Below are positions 16,343 to 21,666 of a stretch of DNA of 21,666 nt, in pieces. Source of the stretch: a virus; the IMG/VR virus record IMGVR_UViG_3300017772_000164, positions 1 to 21,666 of that record; one strand, given 5' to 3'. The notes below the pieces were generated by a model. That model had not been told where the DNA came from, made no database searches, and saw only the letters and a list, made by a program, of their open reading frames with translations. The translations under genes were made by a program, and so were the position numbers. Position 1 is the first letter of the stretch; each line of letters starts with the position of its first letter.

Positions 16343-16448
16343 GTCTTAAAACTAATAAATATTAATTCTTTTTAACTTTTTTATATAATTATTTTAACCT
16401 AGTAAAGTTAATTTAATTACTTTTTTTTGTGTTTTTATTGTGAATAAG

Positions 16449-16710: not shown

Positions 16711-16732
16711 AACTAACTAACACTAAATTAAA
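16711..16732 (+). promoter_or_regulatory. Shared early leader, copy 1
   Basis: AACTAACTAACACTAAATTAAA directly precedes the ATG of the interrupted gene. The same pattern occurs upstream of the genes at 16961 and 17411. With no Shine-Dalgarno present, it is probably a translation-enhancing leader. Confidence 0.5.
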
Positions 16733-16948
16733 ATGAATTTTAAAGAATTAAAAGTAATGGCTAGAATACTTGATAGCATCTAAGAAGAACTTTACGAAAG
16801 AGAAAGCTATGGAAAAGTATCTGATGATTTTAAAGAGTCAGAATTAGGTAAAGATTTTAATCAAAATACAAAATTATTGAAGGAGATTCACGATGATATT
16901 GAAAATGTCATTGATAAATCTTTTATATTTTTAAAACTAACTAAATAA
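16733..16948 (+). pseudogene. Small early gene interrupted by an in-frame TAA
   Basis: One continuous frame of 72 codons from the ATG at 16733 to TAA at 16946-16948, broken only by TAA at codon 17 (16781-16783). Before the stop it reads MNFKELKVMARILDSI; after it EELYERESYGKVSDDFKESE, continuing with LLKEIHDDIENVIDKSFIFL. The downstream 54 codons look coding (charged helical protein, codon use like the neighbours) but contain no ATG, so as it stands only a 16-residue peptide would be made. TAA ends most other genes here, so recoding is unlikely. Possible causes: a recent point mutation (CAA or AAA to TAA), a sequencing error, or readthrough. It retains the shared leader, suggesting recent loss. 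Confidence 0.6.
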
Positions 16949-16960
16949 AACTAAATTAAA
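16935..16960 (+). promoter_or_regulatory. Shared early leader, copy 2
   Basis: AACTAACTAAATAAAACTAA followed by ATTAAA sits immediately before the ATG at 16961 and repeats copy 1 with a small insertion. It overlaps the end of the interrupted gene. Confidence 0.5.
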
Positions 16961-17149
16961 ATGAGTACAAAAGAACTATTAATTATGCAATCAATAGCAG
17001 AGTTTAGAAAGTACAAAGAGCTAGAGCTAAACAAGTCTAAACAAGAAGAACAAAGAAAAGATTCTAATATGGCATCTTATCATCAAGGAAAAGCAGATGG
17101 ATTAGATTTATTAATTCAAAGATTAACTTCTATAAATAACTTAAAGTAA
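16961..17149 (+). CDS. Small helical protein of unknown function
   Basis: A 62-aa protein, MSTKELLIMQSIAEFRKYKE onward, almost entirely helical and highly charged (many Lys, Glu and Gln), ending DLLIQRLTSINNLK. The segment NMASYHQGKADGLDLLIQRL, in which a helix carries a Y-H-x-G-x-A-x-G-L-D pattern, is often seen in small phage proteins of unknown role. It is preceded by the second copy of the shared leader and overlaps the next gene by 1 nt. No catalytic motif and no membrane segment. Function unknown. Confidence 0.65.
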   Translation: MSTKELLIMQSIAEFRKYKELELNKSKQEEQRKDSNMASYHQGKADGLDLLIQRLTSINNLK

Positions 17150-18257: not shown

Positions 18258-18451
18258 AAGATAAATTATTAAAAGAAAAAATTGATGAAATTCTTTTTAG
18301 AAGTCACCAAGTAATTAACTCATCAACTGGCTTAGATATTAGTAAATCTAAAAGAGATGAAGCCAGGAGAGAAAGTAGAAAGATTTTAAAAGAATTAAAA
18401 GATTTAGATATTACAATATATAATATAGTTAAAGAAGAATTCAATGGATGA
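18254..18451 (+). CDS. Small helical protein of unknown function
   Basis: A 65-aa basic helical protein, MKDKLLKEKIDEILFRSHQV onward, with KSKRDEARRESRKILKELKD in its second half and an end in IVKEEFNG. It is coupled by ATGA to the gene before and overlaps the DnaA-like gene by 8 nt. Charge pattern suggests a helical hairpin. No known motif is visible. Its position directly before the DnaA-like gene suggests a replication accessory role, unproven. Confidence 0.62.
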   Translation: MKDKLLKEKIDEILFRSHQVINSSTGLDISKSKRDEARRESRKILKELKDLDITIYNIVKEEFNG

Positions 18452-18863
18452 GATAGAAAGAATAATTAAAGAAAAAGATAATGTCAAAAGCATTATTAAA
18501 TGTACTTGCTTAATTCATAATATAAGCTTACAAGATTTTAATTTAAATTCAAGAGAAAGAAGGCTTATAGATGCTCGGAGAATGGCCTATGCTTTATCTA
18601 AAGACTTATTAGACTTTGGATGGTCCAGAATAGGTAAAGAGTTTAAAATGAATCACGCATCTATTATCCATCACTATAAGCAGCATAAAAGCTTTTTAAA
18701 TACTGATAGTTATTACTTTAATAAATATGATAGTTTATTAGAAGTAGCTAAATGTGAGATTGGATATGTTGAAATTGATAGCATCATAGAAGAAGCTAGA
18801 AGAATTAATAAGCAAAGAATTGAAGAAAGATTAAATATTAAAAATAAAGTTAAAGAATTATGA
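18444..18863 (+). CDS. DnaA domain IV-like DNA-binding protein
   Basis: Residues about 37-85 resemble domain IV of DnaA, the part that reads DnaA boxes: RERRLIDARRMAYALSKDLL, then FGWSRIGKEF, then the signature NHASIIHHYKQHK (residues 70-82), where DnaA has DHTTVLHACRKI. The basic loop and the signature helix are both present. There is no AAA+ ATPase (domain III), so at 139 aa this is only a DNA-binding unit plus helical N- and C-termini. The match predicts binding to TTATCCACA-like boxes. Three of those lie at 19464-19508 in this same operon. It could recruit host DnaA or compete with it. Frame overlaps both neighbours (8 nt and ATGA). Confidence 0.85.
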   Translation: MDEIERIIKEKDNVKSIIKCTCLIHNISLQDFNLNSRERRLIDARRMAYALSKDLLDFGWSRIGKEFKMNHASIIHHYKQHKSFLNTDSYYFNKYDSLLEVAKCEIGYVEIDSIIEEARRINKQRIEERLNIKNKVKEL

Positions 18864-19171
18864 AAACAGTTAGAGATAAAATAATTAAGATGTTAATGGA
18901 TAATCCAAGTAATAGTGATTTTAGTAATAAACTAATTGCCAATTTTTGGTATAAAGAAATTATAAAATCTGGAGCTGATCCTAAAGAATTATCTGCTTTT
19001 GATTTTCTTAATATGATAGCTAATTATAAATTAACTTCAAGTGAAACTATAAGAAGAACAAGTGCTGATATTCAGAAAGAGCATAAAGAGCTTAGAGGTA
19101 AAAATTATAAAAAAAGACAAACTACTTTACAAAATAAAGTAAGAAAAGAATTGGGATATGAAACTTATTAG
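18860..19171 (+). CDS. Conserved-looking phage protein of unknown function
   Basis: A 103-aa protein, helical, with SNKLIANFWYKEIIKSGADP in the first half and TSSETIRRTSADIQKEHKEL followed by RGKNYKKRQTTLQNKVRKEL in the second. The combination of a short helix ending in FWY, a linker with LTSSETIRR and a basic tail is a pattern I have seen in small phage early proteins next to replication genes, but I cannot name a domain. The basic C-terminal half (many Lys and Arg) suggests nucleic-acid contact. It lies between the DnaA-like and initiator genes and overlaps each by 4 and 14 nt. Confidence 0.7.
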   Translation: MKTVRDKIIKMLMDNPSNSDFSNKLIANFWYKEIIKSGADPKELSAFDFLNMIANYKLTSSETIRRTSADIQKEHKELRGKNYKKRQTTLQNKVRKELGYETY

Positions 19172-19868
19172 AGTTAAAAAAGACACTAATTTTACTACTA
19201 TTAATAATGCTTTTATTTTTAATAAAAATATGAGCTTAAAAGCTAAAGGTTTATTATGTCATATTCTAGCTTTACCAAACGATTGGACTCTTTATGTAGA
19301 AGAAGTTGGTAAATGGCATAAAGATGGCAAAGGGTCTATATATTCTGCTTTTAAAGAGCTTACTGCTAATGGATATATGAAAAGAGAGAAGGTAAGAGAT
19401 GAAGCTGGAAAGATAGTTAAATGGGATTATTTAATTTTTGAGAAGCCACATACCGATTTTCAAGATGTGGATAATCCAGATGTGGATAATCCAGATGTTG
19501 ATAATCAGCAACTACTAAAGACTAATATAACTAAAGACTTAATTAAAGTAAATACTAATAGTAATAAAACAGAAGCTTTTAATTATCCAATTGAGTTAAA
19601 TCTTGAATCTTGGAAACTTTGGAAAGAATTTAAAAATGAACAGTTTAAAACTAAATTTAAGCCAATTGGAGAAAAAGCAGCTATAGTAAAACTTTTAAAA
19701 ATATCGAGAGGATGTTTAGAAACTCAATCTTCTATAATAAATCAATCAATAGAAAATGGATGGAAAGGTTTATTTAAATTAAAAGAAGAAAAAGGAAGTA
19801 AAGCTCAAGCAATACTTTCAGAATATGAAAAAGGACTTAATTTAATTAATAATCAATATGATGACTAA
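19158..19868 (+). CDS. Replication initiator (winged-helix, lambda O-like role)
   Basis: Residues about 10-95 form the winged-helix domain common to phage and plasmid replication initiators: NFTTINNAFIFNKNMSLKAK, GLLCHILALPNDWTLYVEEV and GSIYSAFKELTANGYMKREK (the recognition helix and wing). Residues 103-116 are a repeat (DVDN-P-DVDN-P-DVDN), and a linker plus a C-terminal domain (about 135-236, with WKLWKEFKNEQFKTKFKPIG) follow, probably for helicase-loader contact. The DNA encoding the repeat carries DnaA boxes, so the origin seems to lie inside this gene, as in lambda O. It overlaps the upstream gene by 14 nt and the next by 11 nt. Length of 236 aa suits the class. Confidence 0.82.
   Translation: MKLIRVKKDTNFTTINNAFIFNKNMSLKAKGLLCHILALPNDWTLYVEEVGKWHKDGKGSIYSAFKELTANGYMKREKVRDEAGKIVKWDYLIFEKPHTDFQDVDNPDVDNPDVDNQQLLKTNITKDLIKVNTNSNKTEAFNYPIELNLESWKLWKEFKNEQFKTKFKPIGEKAAIVKLLKISRGCLETQSSIINQSIENGWKGLFKLKEEKGSKAQAILSEYEKGLNLINNQYDD
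19464..19508 (+). repeat. Three 15-bp iterons with DnaA boxes, candidate replication origin
   Basis: The unit GATGTGGATAATCCA occurs at 19464-19478 and 19479-19493, and a variant GATGTTGATAATCAG at 19494-19508. Each contains a DnaA box on the minus strand: TGTGGATAA at 19466-19474 and 19481-19489 is the exact reverse complement of TTATCCACA, and TGTTGATAA at 19496-19504 differs by one base. The DNA right downstream (19510-19600) is almost pure A/T with few C or G, suiting an unwinding element. In the protein the units encode the DVDN(P/Q) repeats. Confidence 0.75.
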
Positions 19869-20115: not shown

Positions 20116-20506
20116 GCAGATTTGGAATCTATATAAAACAAATGAAAAGCAATTAGTAATAGAATGCTTTAATATTTTATCAGAATTTTATGTTCATCTT
20201 GGACATAAATCAGAAGCTCAAATAGTTAATGCTCTTAATAAAATTTTTGTAGAAGATTTAATAACTAGATATTCTTTTATGGAAATAGAAGAAGTAAGAT
20301 TTGCAATTCACAAAGGGATTAAGGATAATGATCCTCCTTTGTTTGTTAATGTTCCAACTTGGAATAAATTTTTAAGAGATTATAGGAAATCTGAACAATT
20401 TAGAAGGCAGTCTAATGCAATAGAAGAATATACTATTTATAAAAAAAGAATGGAAGGATTTGGCAAAGCTTTAAAAAATAGAGAAGTTAAAAAGATAGGT
20501 AAATGA
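20099..20506 (+). CDS. Unknown protein, possible replication accessory factor
   Basis: A 135-aa protein with helical N-terminal half (KQLVIECFNILSEFYVHLGH, then KSEAQIVNALNKIFVEDLIT) and a conserved-looking middle (IEEVRFAIHKGIKDNDPPLF, then VNVPTWNKFLRDYRKSEQFR). The C-terminus is basic (KALKNREVKKIGK). The stretch with FAIHKGIKDNDPPLFVNVPT resembles helical domains in phage helicase-loader-like proteins where a short helix is followed by an N-V-P-x-W turn, but I cannot name a family with confidence. Its place after the initiator would suit a loader. It overlaps the next gene by ATGA. Confidence 0.6.
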   Translation: MKDKSKQIWNLYKTNEKQLVIECFNILSEFYVHLGHKSEAQIVNALNKIFVEDLITRYSFMEIEEVRFAIHKGIKDNDPPLFVNVPTWNKFLRDYRKSEQFRRQSNAIEEYTIYKKRMEGFGKALKNREVKKIGK

Positions 20507-21144
20507 ATATTTTAGAGTTATTTGCTGGTAGTAGGTCTATTGGTAATGTTGCTGATGATTTAGGATGTAATGTTTTTAGTGTTGACATAAACAATTTTAA
20601 AAATATAAATTTAGTTAAAGACATAGAATTTTTATCTCCTAAAGATATTCCATTTATACCAGATATGATATGGGCATCTCCTCCTTGTACTACATACTCT
20701 ATTGCTGCTATTAGTCATCATAGACCAACAAATAATAAATTATCTGAATTTGCTTTAAAGTCAGATAGATTAGTAAAAAAGACTTTAGAATTAATAAAAC
20801 ATTATAATTGTATTTATTATATTGAGAATCCTAGAGGTTTATTAAGAAAACAAAAATATATGTTAGGAATACCTAAAACAACAATATGGTATTGTAAATA
20901 TGGAGATAATAGAGCAAAGCCAACTGATATTTTTAGCAATAACATTTTTAATTTATTTAATGAAAATGGATGGATACCAAAAGAAAAATGTTTTAATAAT
21001 AATATAAATTGTCATCACGAATCTGCTCCAAGAGGTAGTAACACAGGCACGCAAGGATTAAAAAATAATTATGAAAGGAGTAAAATACCTTATTTATTAT
21101 GCAAAGAAATAATAGAATCTACAAAAAATGGCTACAATAAGTAA
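20503..21144 (+). CDS. C5-cytosine DNA methyltransferase-like protein
   Basis: The 213-aa protein shows motif I (LELFAGSRSIG, SAM binding), motif II/III (VFSVDIN), motif IV with the catalytic Cys62 (WASPPCTTYS) and motif VI (YYIENPRG, Glu108), here ENP instead of the usual ENV. KPTDIF near 139-144 resembles motif VIII-type sequence. At 213 aa it is shorter than typical C5 enzymes (300 or more), and I see no separate target-recognition domain, so its specificity cannot be read. Roles could be protecting phage DNA against host restriction or altering gene expression. No cognate restriction enzyme is adjacent. It overlaps neighbours by 4 and 17 nt. Confidence 0.85.
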   Translation: MNILELFAGSRSIGNVADDLGCNVFSVDINNFKNINLVKDIEFLSPKDIPFIPDMIWASPPCTTYSIAAISHHRPTNNKLSEFALKSDRLVKKTLELIKHYNCIYYIENPRGLLRKQKYMLGIPKTTIWYCKYGDNRAKPTDIFSNNIFNLFNENGWIPKEKCFNNNINCHHESAPRGSNTGTQGLKNNYERSKIPYLLCKEIIESTKNGYNK

Positions 21145-21517
21145 ACTTAAAAAGAAGCTTGATAAGATATTCAGCGAATACATTAGACTAAGAGATTCTG
21201 ATTATAAAGGAAATTGTAAATGTATTTCTTGTGGTAAAGAAGCTCCAGCTTTTGGAGGGTCTACTCACGCGGGCCATCTATTTAGCCGACGTTATCTCTC
21301 AATAAGATTTGATGAGAAAAATGTAAATGCTCAATGTTCCTATTGTAATACTTTTCTTAGCGGTAACCAAATTAAGGCCGCCAGGGGAGTAGAGAATAAA
21401 TGGGGAGAAGGAACAGTAGCTAATTTAGAATCTAGAATGCACGTAACTACAAAACTATCTAGAATTGACTATGAAGAAGCTATAGAGAATATTAAAAGAA
21501 AGATTAAAGAATTATGA
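21128..21517 (+). CDS. ninG: NinG (Rap)-like recombination protein
   Basis: The 129-aa protein matches the lambda NinG family: zinc-binding Cys cluster GNCKCISCGK (C30, C32, C35), then THAGHLFSRRYLSIRFDEKN (H47, H50) and VNAQCSYCNTFLSGNQ (C70, C73), the HNH-like core. Lambda NinG/Rap is a structure-specific endonuclease acting on Holliday junctions and D-loops in phage recombination. Lambda's protein is longer, but this short form covers the core. The start ATG at 21128 overlaps the methyltransferase end by 17 nt and the next gene begins in an ATGA overlap. The conserved core has unusually high GC and rare CGA CGT codons. Confidence 0.9.
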   Translation: MATISKLKKKLDKIFSEYIRLRDSDYKGNCKCISCGKEAPAFGGSTHAGHLFSRRYLSIRFDEKNVNAQCSYCNTFLSGNQIKAARGVENKWGEGTVANLESRMHVTTKLSRIDYEEAIENIKRKIKEL

Positions 21518-21666
21518 TAACAGTTAATTCAATTAGTGGAGGTAAAACTTCAAGCTTTATAGCTAAAAATTATCCAGCAGATTATAATATTTTTTCTTTA
21601 GTTAGAACTAATGACAAAGAATGTATTTATCCAGATAAAAAAATAAGACAGATAGTAAGTGATAAA
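21514..21666 (+). CDS. PP-loop ATPase, PAPS-reductase-like (3' partial)
   Basis: Only the first 51 residues are visible. They carry the PP-loop SGGKTSSF (about residues 8-15), used by PAPS reductase and other N-type ATP pyrophosphatases to bind and activate ATP, followed by the PADYNIFSLVRTNDKECIYP stretch and KIRQIVSDK. Phage members of this family are common in Bacteroidota phages and are annotated as PAPS reductase-like, but their actual reaction is not settled; DndC-type DNA modification, tRNA thiolation or sulfur assimilation are options. It begins in an ATGA overlap with the ninG-like gene, so it belongs to the same operon. The remainder lies past the window end. Confidence 0.8.
   Translation, partial: MITVNSISGGKTSSFIAKNYPADYNIFSLVRTNDKECIYPDKKIRQIVSDK

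Follow-up and report, generated by a model that had tools for sequence, protein, structure and literature searches.

A probable lambda-like replication origin, built of palindromic 15-bp iterons, within the initiator gene of a virus

The replication initiator gene of the virus studied here very probably contains a lambda-like origin of replication, in which the winged helix of the initiator itself would read tandem 15-bp iterons and an unwinding element would lie next to them. The window, that is, the whole stretch of DNA analysed, corresponds to a linear virus record 21,666 bp long. It has the features of an in-gene iteron origin, namely repeats between the domains of the initiator, units that are inverted repeats (at the level of the family), and an AT-rich neighbouring region for melting. 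An earlier note on this DNA had proposed that the origin is hidden in the initiator gene and consists of DnaA boxes; the origin-type iteron array is upheld here, and the identity of its units as DnaA boxes is not. The features are listed in Table 1.

Table 1. Coordinates of the initiator gene, the iterons, and associated features in the window
Feature	Position	Strand	Remarks
DnaA domain IV-like protein, 139 aa	18444..18863	+	PF08299, E value 1.9e-11; two genes upstream of the initiator
Replication initiator gene, 236 aa	19158..19868	+	Winged helix (HTH_36-like), disordered linker bearing the probable origin, O-like helical C-terminal domain
Probable recognition helix, residues 58-70	19329..19367	+	Helix in the wHTH model; inside the stretch that diverges jointly between L041 and L013
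W89 wing codon	19422..19424	+	Tracks iteron base 8
Iteron 1, CAA.GATG.TGG.ATAAT	19461..19475	+	2/3 dyad pairs
Iteron 2, CCA.GATG.TGG.ATAAT	19476..19490	+	3/3 dyad pairs; 10-bp core identical to TP901-1 repeats
Iteron 3, CCA.GATG.TTG.ATAAT	19491..19505	+	2/3 dyad pairs
6-bp spacer CAGCAA	19506..19511	+	Length constant across initiator clusters
CTACTAAAGACTAAT, AT-rich, candidate unwinding or single-strand-binding element	19512..19526	+	Codon bias; conserved in two reading frames
Candidate DNA unwinding region, 60 bp past the iterons	19512..19571	+	Low mean stacking energy

The best PHROG match of the initiator is phrog_4707 (E value, 1.7e-27), one of the replication-initiation families, and residues 60 to 217 match the 'O-like' family phrog_678 (E value, 9e-9). 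Residues 24 to 74 match HTH_36 (PF13730) with an E value of 1.5e-4 and 21.9 bits, which is below the Pfam gathering cut-off of 25 bits; the Rep protein of phage TP901-1 (24.5 bits) likewise falls below it. RepA_N (PF06970) is absent from the Pfam matches of the initiator at E values of ≤1. In the AlphaFold model, the winged-helix domain comprises helices at residues 17 to 21, 27 to 38, 47 to 53, and 58 to 70 and wing strands at residues 74 to 80 and 86 to 93, the linker (residues 101 to 140) is predicted to be disordered (pLDDT of <50), and the C-terminal part is helical. A Foldseek search against the PDB retrieved generic winged-helix matches (best E value, 3.4e-3), with DnaD and DnaB among the weaker ones, and a sequence search of the PDB found no relative. 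The scan of genome contigs retrieved a single C-terminal relative, in Bizionia, which makes a host among the Flavobacteriia no more than a hint.

The three tandem 15-bp units described in the earlier note are real, with the register corrected to 19461-19505. TRF places the array at 19463-19506 with a score of 81, the highest TRF score in the window, and the natural units are CAAGATGTGGATAAT, CCAGATGTGGATAAT, and CCAGATGTTGATAAT. Their location between the winged-helix domain and the C-terminal domain, also claimed previously, is borne out by the PF13730 match, the structural model, and TRF. The words that had been read as complements of the DnaA box are present on the plus strand, two exact (TGTGGATAA at 19466-19474 and 19481-19489) and one variant (TGTTGATAA at 19496-19504). 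Together they give three matches to TGTKGATAA in the window, compared with 0.61 expected, and at least three were reached in 1 of 100 shuffles; since the matches are copies of one unit, they represent one event rather than three. With up to one mismatch, the iteron motif occurs in the window in the array and at a single site at 834. The window array consists of three units only, one a perfect dyad and two with one mismatch, and no shift in GC skew, a check proposed by the earlier note, was seen at the array.

The units obey a dyad rule that is apparent from the relatives, which came from a scan of viral contigs yielding 79 loci, 66 of them with initiators and analysed further. With the first base of codon 1 taken as position 1 of the unit, position 2 is complementary to position 9 and position 3 to position 8, giving CxyNNNNy'x'G followed in the relatives by AAAAN; a scan of all column pairs that assumed no register ranked pairs 3-8 and 2-9 and the tandem copies first. 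Half-sites have changed in a compensatory manner among the relatives (CCA/TGG, CCG/CGG, CGG/CCG, CTG/CAG, and CTA/TAG), with the window core CCA.GATG.TGG being represented in them by CTA.GATG.TAG, CTA.CAAG.TAG, CTG.AATA.CAG, CGG.AATA.CCG, and CCG.AAAA.CGG. The wobble bases of codons 1 and 3 fall at positions 3 and 9, respectively, so that codon choice could be examined without altering the peptide. Among 56 distinct units from the 66 family members, pair 3-8 is complementary in 55 and pair 2-9 in 35, compared with about 25 to 27 and 14 to 15, respectively, under the synonymous-codon nulls, and none of 2,000 draws reached the observed pairing. On the tree, pair 3-8 underwent 11 double changes (9 from pair to pair) and pair 2-9 underwent 8 (6 from pair to pair), compared with 0 or 1 pair-to-pair changes in control column pairs. 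GTG accounts for 1% of the Val codons in the window ORFs yet for two of three in the repeat; GTG, CCG, CGG, and TCG each make up about 1% of the codons for their amino acid in these ORFs, and CTG about 0%. A dyad scan of single genes at any position is weak and overly permissive, with 8 of 36 clusters reaching p ≤ 0.05, and the evidence for the dyad is strong through pooling and fixed geometry rather than gene by gene. Exceptions to the rule are L062, L085, and Limosilactobacillus (CGTACATTGG), and the spacer within the dyad is altered in L116 and L155, whose linkers hold CCGA-CCG-TCGG and CCA-GTCAG-TGG, respectively, in otherwise similar arrays.

Pairing beyond the synonymous-codon nulls is also found in distant phage initiators of Firmicutes and Bacteroidetes, and a common register is shared by those of Lactococcus, Lactobacillus, Parageobacillus, Staphylococcus, Bacteroides, Parabacteroides, and Alistipes phages. 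Out of sample (51 distinct units from 18 far clusters), the two pairs form 45 and 38 times, compared with 24.5 and 27.6 expected, and these values were reached by 0 and 1 of 3,000 null draws, respectively. The geometry is fixed: a CTACTAA anchor is available in 34 of 36 clusters, and in the unit ending 6 bp before it 88 of the 102 pairs that could form do so, compared with 81 one unit further upstream and 13 to 42 at all other offsets. Four staphylococcal clusters have the identical DNA layout in another reading frame, encoding GKTVN or FSENG and then TTNNN in place of PDVDN and then LLNTN, and the second-frame layout also occurs in some plasmids. Selection on the peptide can hardly account for the recurrence of the layout in a second frame with a different peptide. 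The synonymous-codon nulls, the compensatory changes, and this second-frame copy of the DNA indicate that the repeat is constrained at the DNA level. The encoded peptide repeat is largely a by-product of the DNA signal, as the earlier note had suggested in part, since across many phages the letters of the DNA repeat vary widely yet stay palindromic.

For plasmids, the prediction was set down first and ten initiators were then examined against it. Six of the ten fit the unit, the 6-bp spacer, and the element on a corrected reading, the correction having been made after the data were seen; two fit in part and two do not. The automatic pass alone found the pairing of the last units in 3/7 (pair 2-9) and 2/7 (pair 3-8), a low score that arose because anchors were missed or misplaced. 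The fitting plasmids are from Caldicellulosiruptor, Brevibacillus, Aneurinibacillus, S. nepalensis, Apilactobacillus (CTACAAA), and Exiguobacterium (GTACTAA), those fitting in part are from Limosilactobacillus and B. carboniphilus, and those of Levilactobacillus and Deinococcus do not fit. In the Limosilactobacillus plasmid (L276), three copies of CGTACATTGG are followed by the usual 6 bp and CTACTAA without a dyad. The rule of dyad, spacer, and element is general, not universal.

Exactly 6 bp past the last unit stands the element CTACTAAATACTAAT, in the window in the form CTACTAAAGACTAAT. Its codon usage in 27 clusters is strongly skewed, with CTA encoding 38 of 47 Leu residues (10% elsewhere in these genes), ACT used in 23 of 23 cases (29% elsewhere), and AAT in 38 of 38 (59% elsewhere); the p-values for this bias treat the clusters as independent. 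The DNA past the iterons is also of low stability. Stacking energies there, averaged over 34 clusters, are -1.01 and -1.06 kcal/mol per step, compared with -1.23 to -1.38 elsewhere, and the 60 bp from CTACTAAATACTAAT onward are on average less stable than any other part of the gene.

Protein and DNA covary. Of the 13 clusters whose iterons have T at position 8, 12 carry Trp at residue 89, as do 2 of the 21 remaining clusters (Fisher p, 2e-6, with clusters taken as independent), and p-values based on clusters leave out part of the shared ancestry. Between the L041 and L013 loci, nucleotide identity is 97% in each flank but falls to 70% across the recognition helix and wing and to 51% over the array; since the two are near-identical apart from these segments, helix, wing, and array diverge jointly. 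The sequences suggest that a specificity cassette may be exchanged between co-occurring phages, and, in the manner of a compatibility type, the half-site letters diverge fast alongside the wing and the recognition helix. Near-identical flanks around a divergent recognition-helix/wing/iteron segment are seen in the pairs L041/L013, L040/L006, and L048/L051. The C-terminal domains vary independently and are of the DnaB_2 type in TP901-1 and Parageobacillus-type initiators, Phg_2220_C in staphylococcal ones, and O-like in the window.

By analogy with TP901-1, pPR9/pSK41, and lambda O, initiator binding, opening, and helicase loading would follow one another in this phage in the following order. 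The N-terminal winged helix would bind the tandem 15-bp iterons, probably in dimeric or higher oligomeric form, each iteron being a short dyad, CxyNNNNy'x'G, and then an A-tract. Once filled, the array would put strain on the weakly paired tract, which begins at CTACTAAAGACTAAT 6 bp downstream, and open it, after which a helicase or helicase loader would be brought in by the C-terminal domain. Because the linker is disordered and tolerant, it has room for a DNA signal, and DVDNPDVDNPDVDN is what that signal translates to.

That the units are instead DnaA boxes, with host DnaA or the phage DnaA domain IV-like protein as the binding protein, is very unlikely, even though two exact complements of TTATCCACA and one variant are present and the DnaA domain IV-like gene lies nearby, two genes upstream. 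The earlier note had proposed looking for conservation of the box bases in homologues, and TGTGGATAA is kept in the initiator genes of the 66 relatives by L001 alone. DnaA-box-like words are not enriched around the origin in homologous loci (52 seen versus 59 after shuffling), and TP901-1 shares the CCAGATGTGG core without TGTGGATAA. The further proposal that the DnaA domain IV-like protein reads the repeats is not supported, as its gene is retained in 55 of 66 relatives and the box is missing from all but one of their arrays; the gene is thus kept without the boxes. In this protein, NHAS stands where the aligned E. coli DnaA has DHTT at its box-contacting positions, and because of this replacement the protein may have an altered binding site elsewhere. 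The DnaA-box reading was rejected on the basis of homologue conservation, the lack of enrichment, and the persistence of the DnaA-like gene without boxes. The match to the box is a by-product of the CCA/TGG half-sites in this lineage, and the A-tract ATAAT gives the window units their DnaA-box look.

It is likewise highly improbable that the acidic/asparagine-rich peptide has been selected as a flexible spacer or interaction repeat, with the regularity of the DNA stemming from recent tandem duplication. The 5-aa units are near-identical within an array, duplication yields copies, and the linker is predicted to be disordered; however, the wobble bases obey the dyad and not codon usage, double changes are compensatory, identical DNA in the other frame encodes a different peptide, the 6-bp gap to a codon-constrained element is constant, and duplication alone gives no complementarity of positions 2/3 with 9/8. 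Dyads bound by a winged-helix protein also resemble operators, and the array could be both operator and origin. That it serves the autoregulation of the initiator or an early operon and is not an origin is extremely improbable, given that it lies mid-gene rather than at a promoter, that the motif with up to one mismatch is confined to the array and the site at 834, that the low-stability element adjoins it at a fixed distance, and that the equivalent TP901-1 repeats are reported as ori.

Beyond this origin, it is about an even chance that the HTH_36 initiators of Firmicutes- and Bacteroidetes-associated phages and plasmids share one in-gene module, composed of covarying palindromic 15-bp iterons, 6 bp, and a CTACTAAATACTAAT opening element akin to the DnaA-trio/DRE. 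Recognition helix and wing would determine its interchangeable types, with W89 reading the A:T pair at 3/8, and the module would be swapped as a helix-wing-iteron cassette and be independent of reading frame. If so, phages would hold many mutually compatible replication types. The in-gene iteron origin by itself explains the recurring short in-frame peptide repeats between phage initiator domains as translations of origin iterons. Its sequence rule locates such origins from sequence and predicts their specificity type, a link is drawn between the phage and plasmid opening element and the chromosomal DnaA-trio/DnaD element, and exchanging W89 together with the base 3/8 pair offers a single-swap test of initiator protein-DNA specificity. 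The covarying half-sites, the W89 coupling, and the fixed unwinding element were not found described in open-licence PMC papers, and an earlier description may exist elsewhere.

Several other features of the window were recorded. The DnaA domain IV-like protein (18444-18863) has no AAA+ domain, and an intergenic segment before the early genes (16421-16447) holds a doubled TTTTTATTGTG and one TGTGAATAA, a DnaA box of the TTATNCACA type. A 103-aa ORF (18860-19171) lies just upstream of the initiator and is found in several relatives about 1.3 to 2 kb downstream of the initiator start, apparently through shuffling of gene order. A DNA methyltransferase-like gene (20503-21144) is present in only 2 of 66 related loci, and the neighbouring NinG-like gene (21128-21517) in 55 of 66. 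Two 39-bp copies (18834-18872 and 21488-21526; 87%) span overlapping stop/start junctions (AAAGAATTATGA), and two 49-bp leader-like copies (16711-16759 and 16939-16987; 78%) include the ATG starts of small ORFs.

An iteron origin within the initiator gene is of an already known kind, represented by lambda ori in O, TP901-1, and pSK41. The lambda ori lies in the middle of gene O, and O dimers bind its iterons, each of them an inverted repeat, with an AT-rich region alongside (PMC7466680). The window resembles it in the mid-gene position of the origin, the inverted-repeat iterons, and the adjoining AT-rich region; however, lambda iterons are 19 bp long and those of the window 15 bp, and the O-like PHROG match of the window initiator is just 9e-9 in E value and covers part of the length. 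In pSK41, the Rep boxes are central in rep, the linker is dispensable as protein, and the N-terminal winged helix binds the boxes, and the chimeric plasmid pPR9 replicates with the pSK41-type N-terminal domain and origin (about 500 bp) swapped for those of a pfam13730 type (PMC5703833). Central repeats in the gene and an N-terminal winged helix as their probable reader are found in the window too, whereas pSK41 carries a RepA_N domain and the window initiator an HTH_36-like one. ORF13 (Rep) of TP901-1 and Rep2009 of Tuc2009 are each reported to bind direct repeats located inside the gene that encodes them, and these repeats to act as ori (PMC8965321). TP901-1 Rep has an HTH_36-type winged helix, as in the window (51% identity over 114 aa), the repeats between its domains share the exact window core CCAGATGTGG, and CAGCAG-CTACTAAATACTAAT follows downstream with equal spacing; TP901-1 and Tuc2009 differ in their DnaB_2/DnaD-type C-terminal domain, which is O-like in the window, and in their lactococcal hosts. 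The DnaD recognition element of Bacillus subtilis oriC, 5'-CTACTATTACTTCTACTA-3', lies opposite the DnaA-trios (PMC10201434). It resembles CTACTAAATACTAAT in that each contains two TnnT motifs (both TACT in CTACTAAATACTAAT), and the complementary strand of CTACTAAATACTAAT begins 3'-GATGAT, as do DnaA-trios, which are repeats of 3'-(G/A)AT-5' opposite TnnT motifs, with only two trios in register and no DnaA box in the phage element. The B. subtilis element is chromosomal and stands beside DnaA boxes, whereas the phage element follows the iterons of the initiator.
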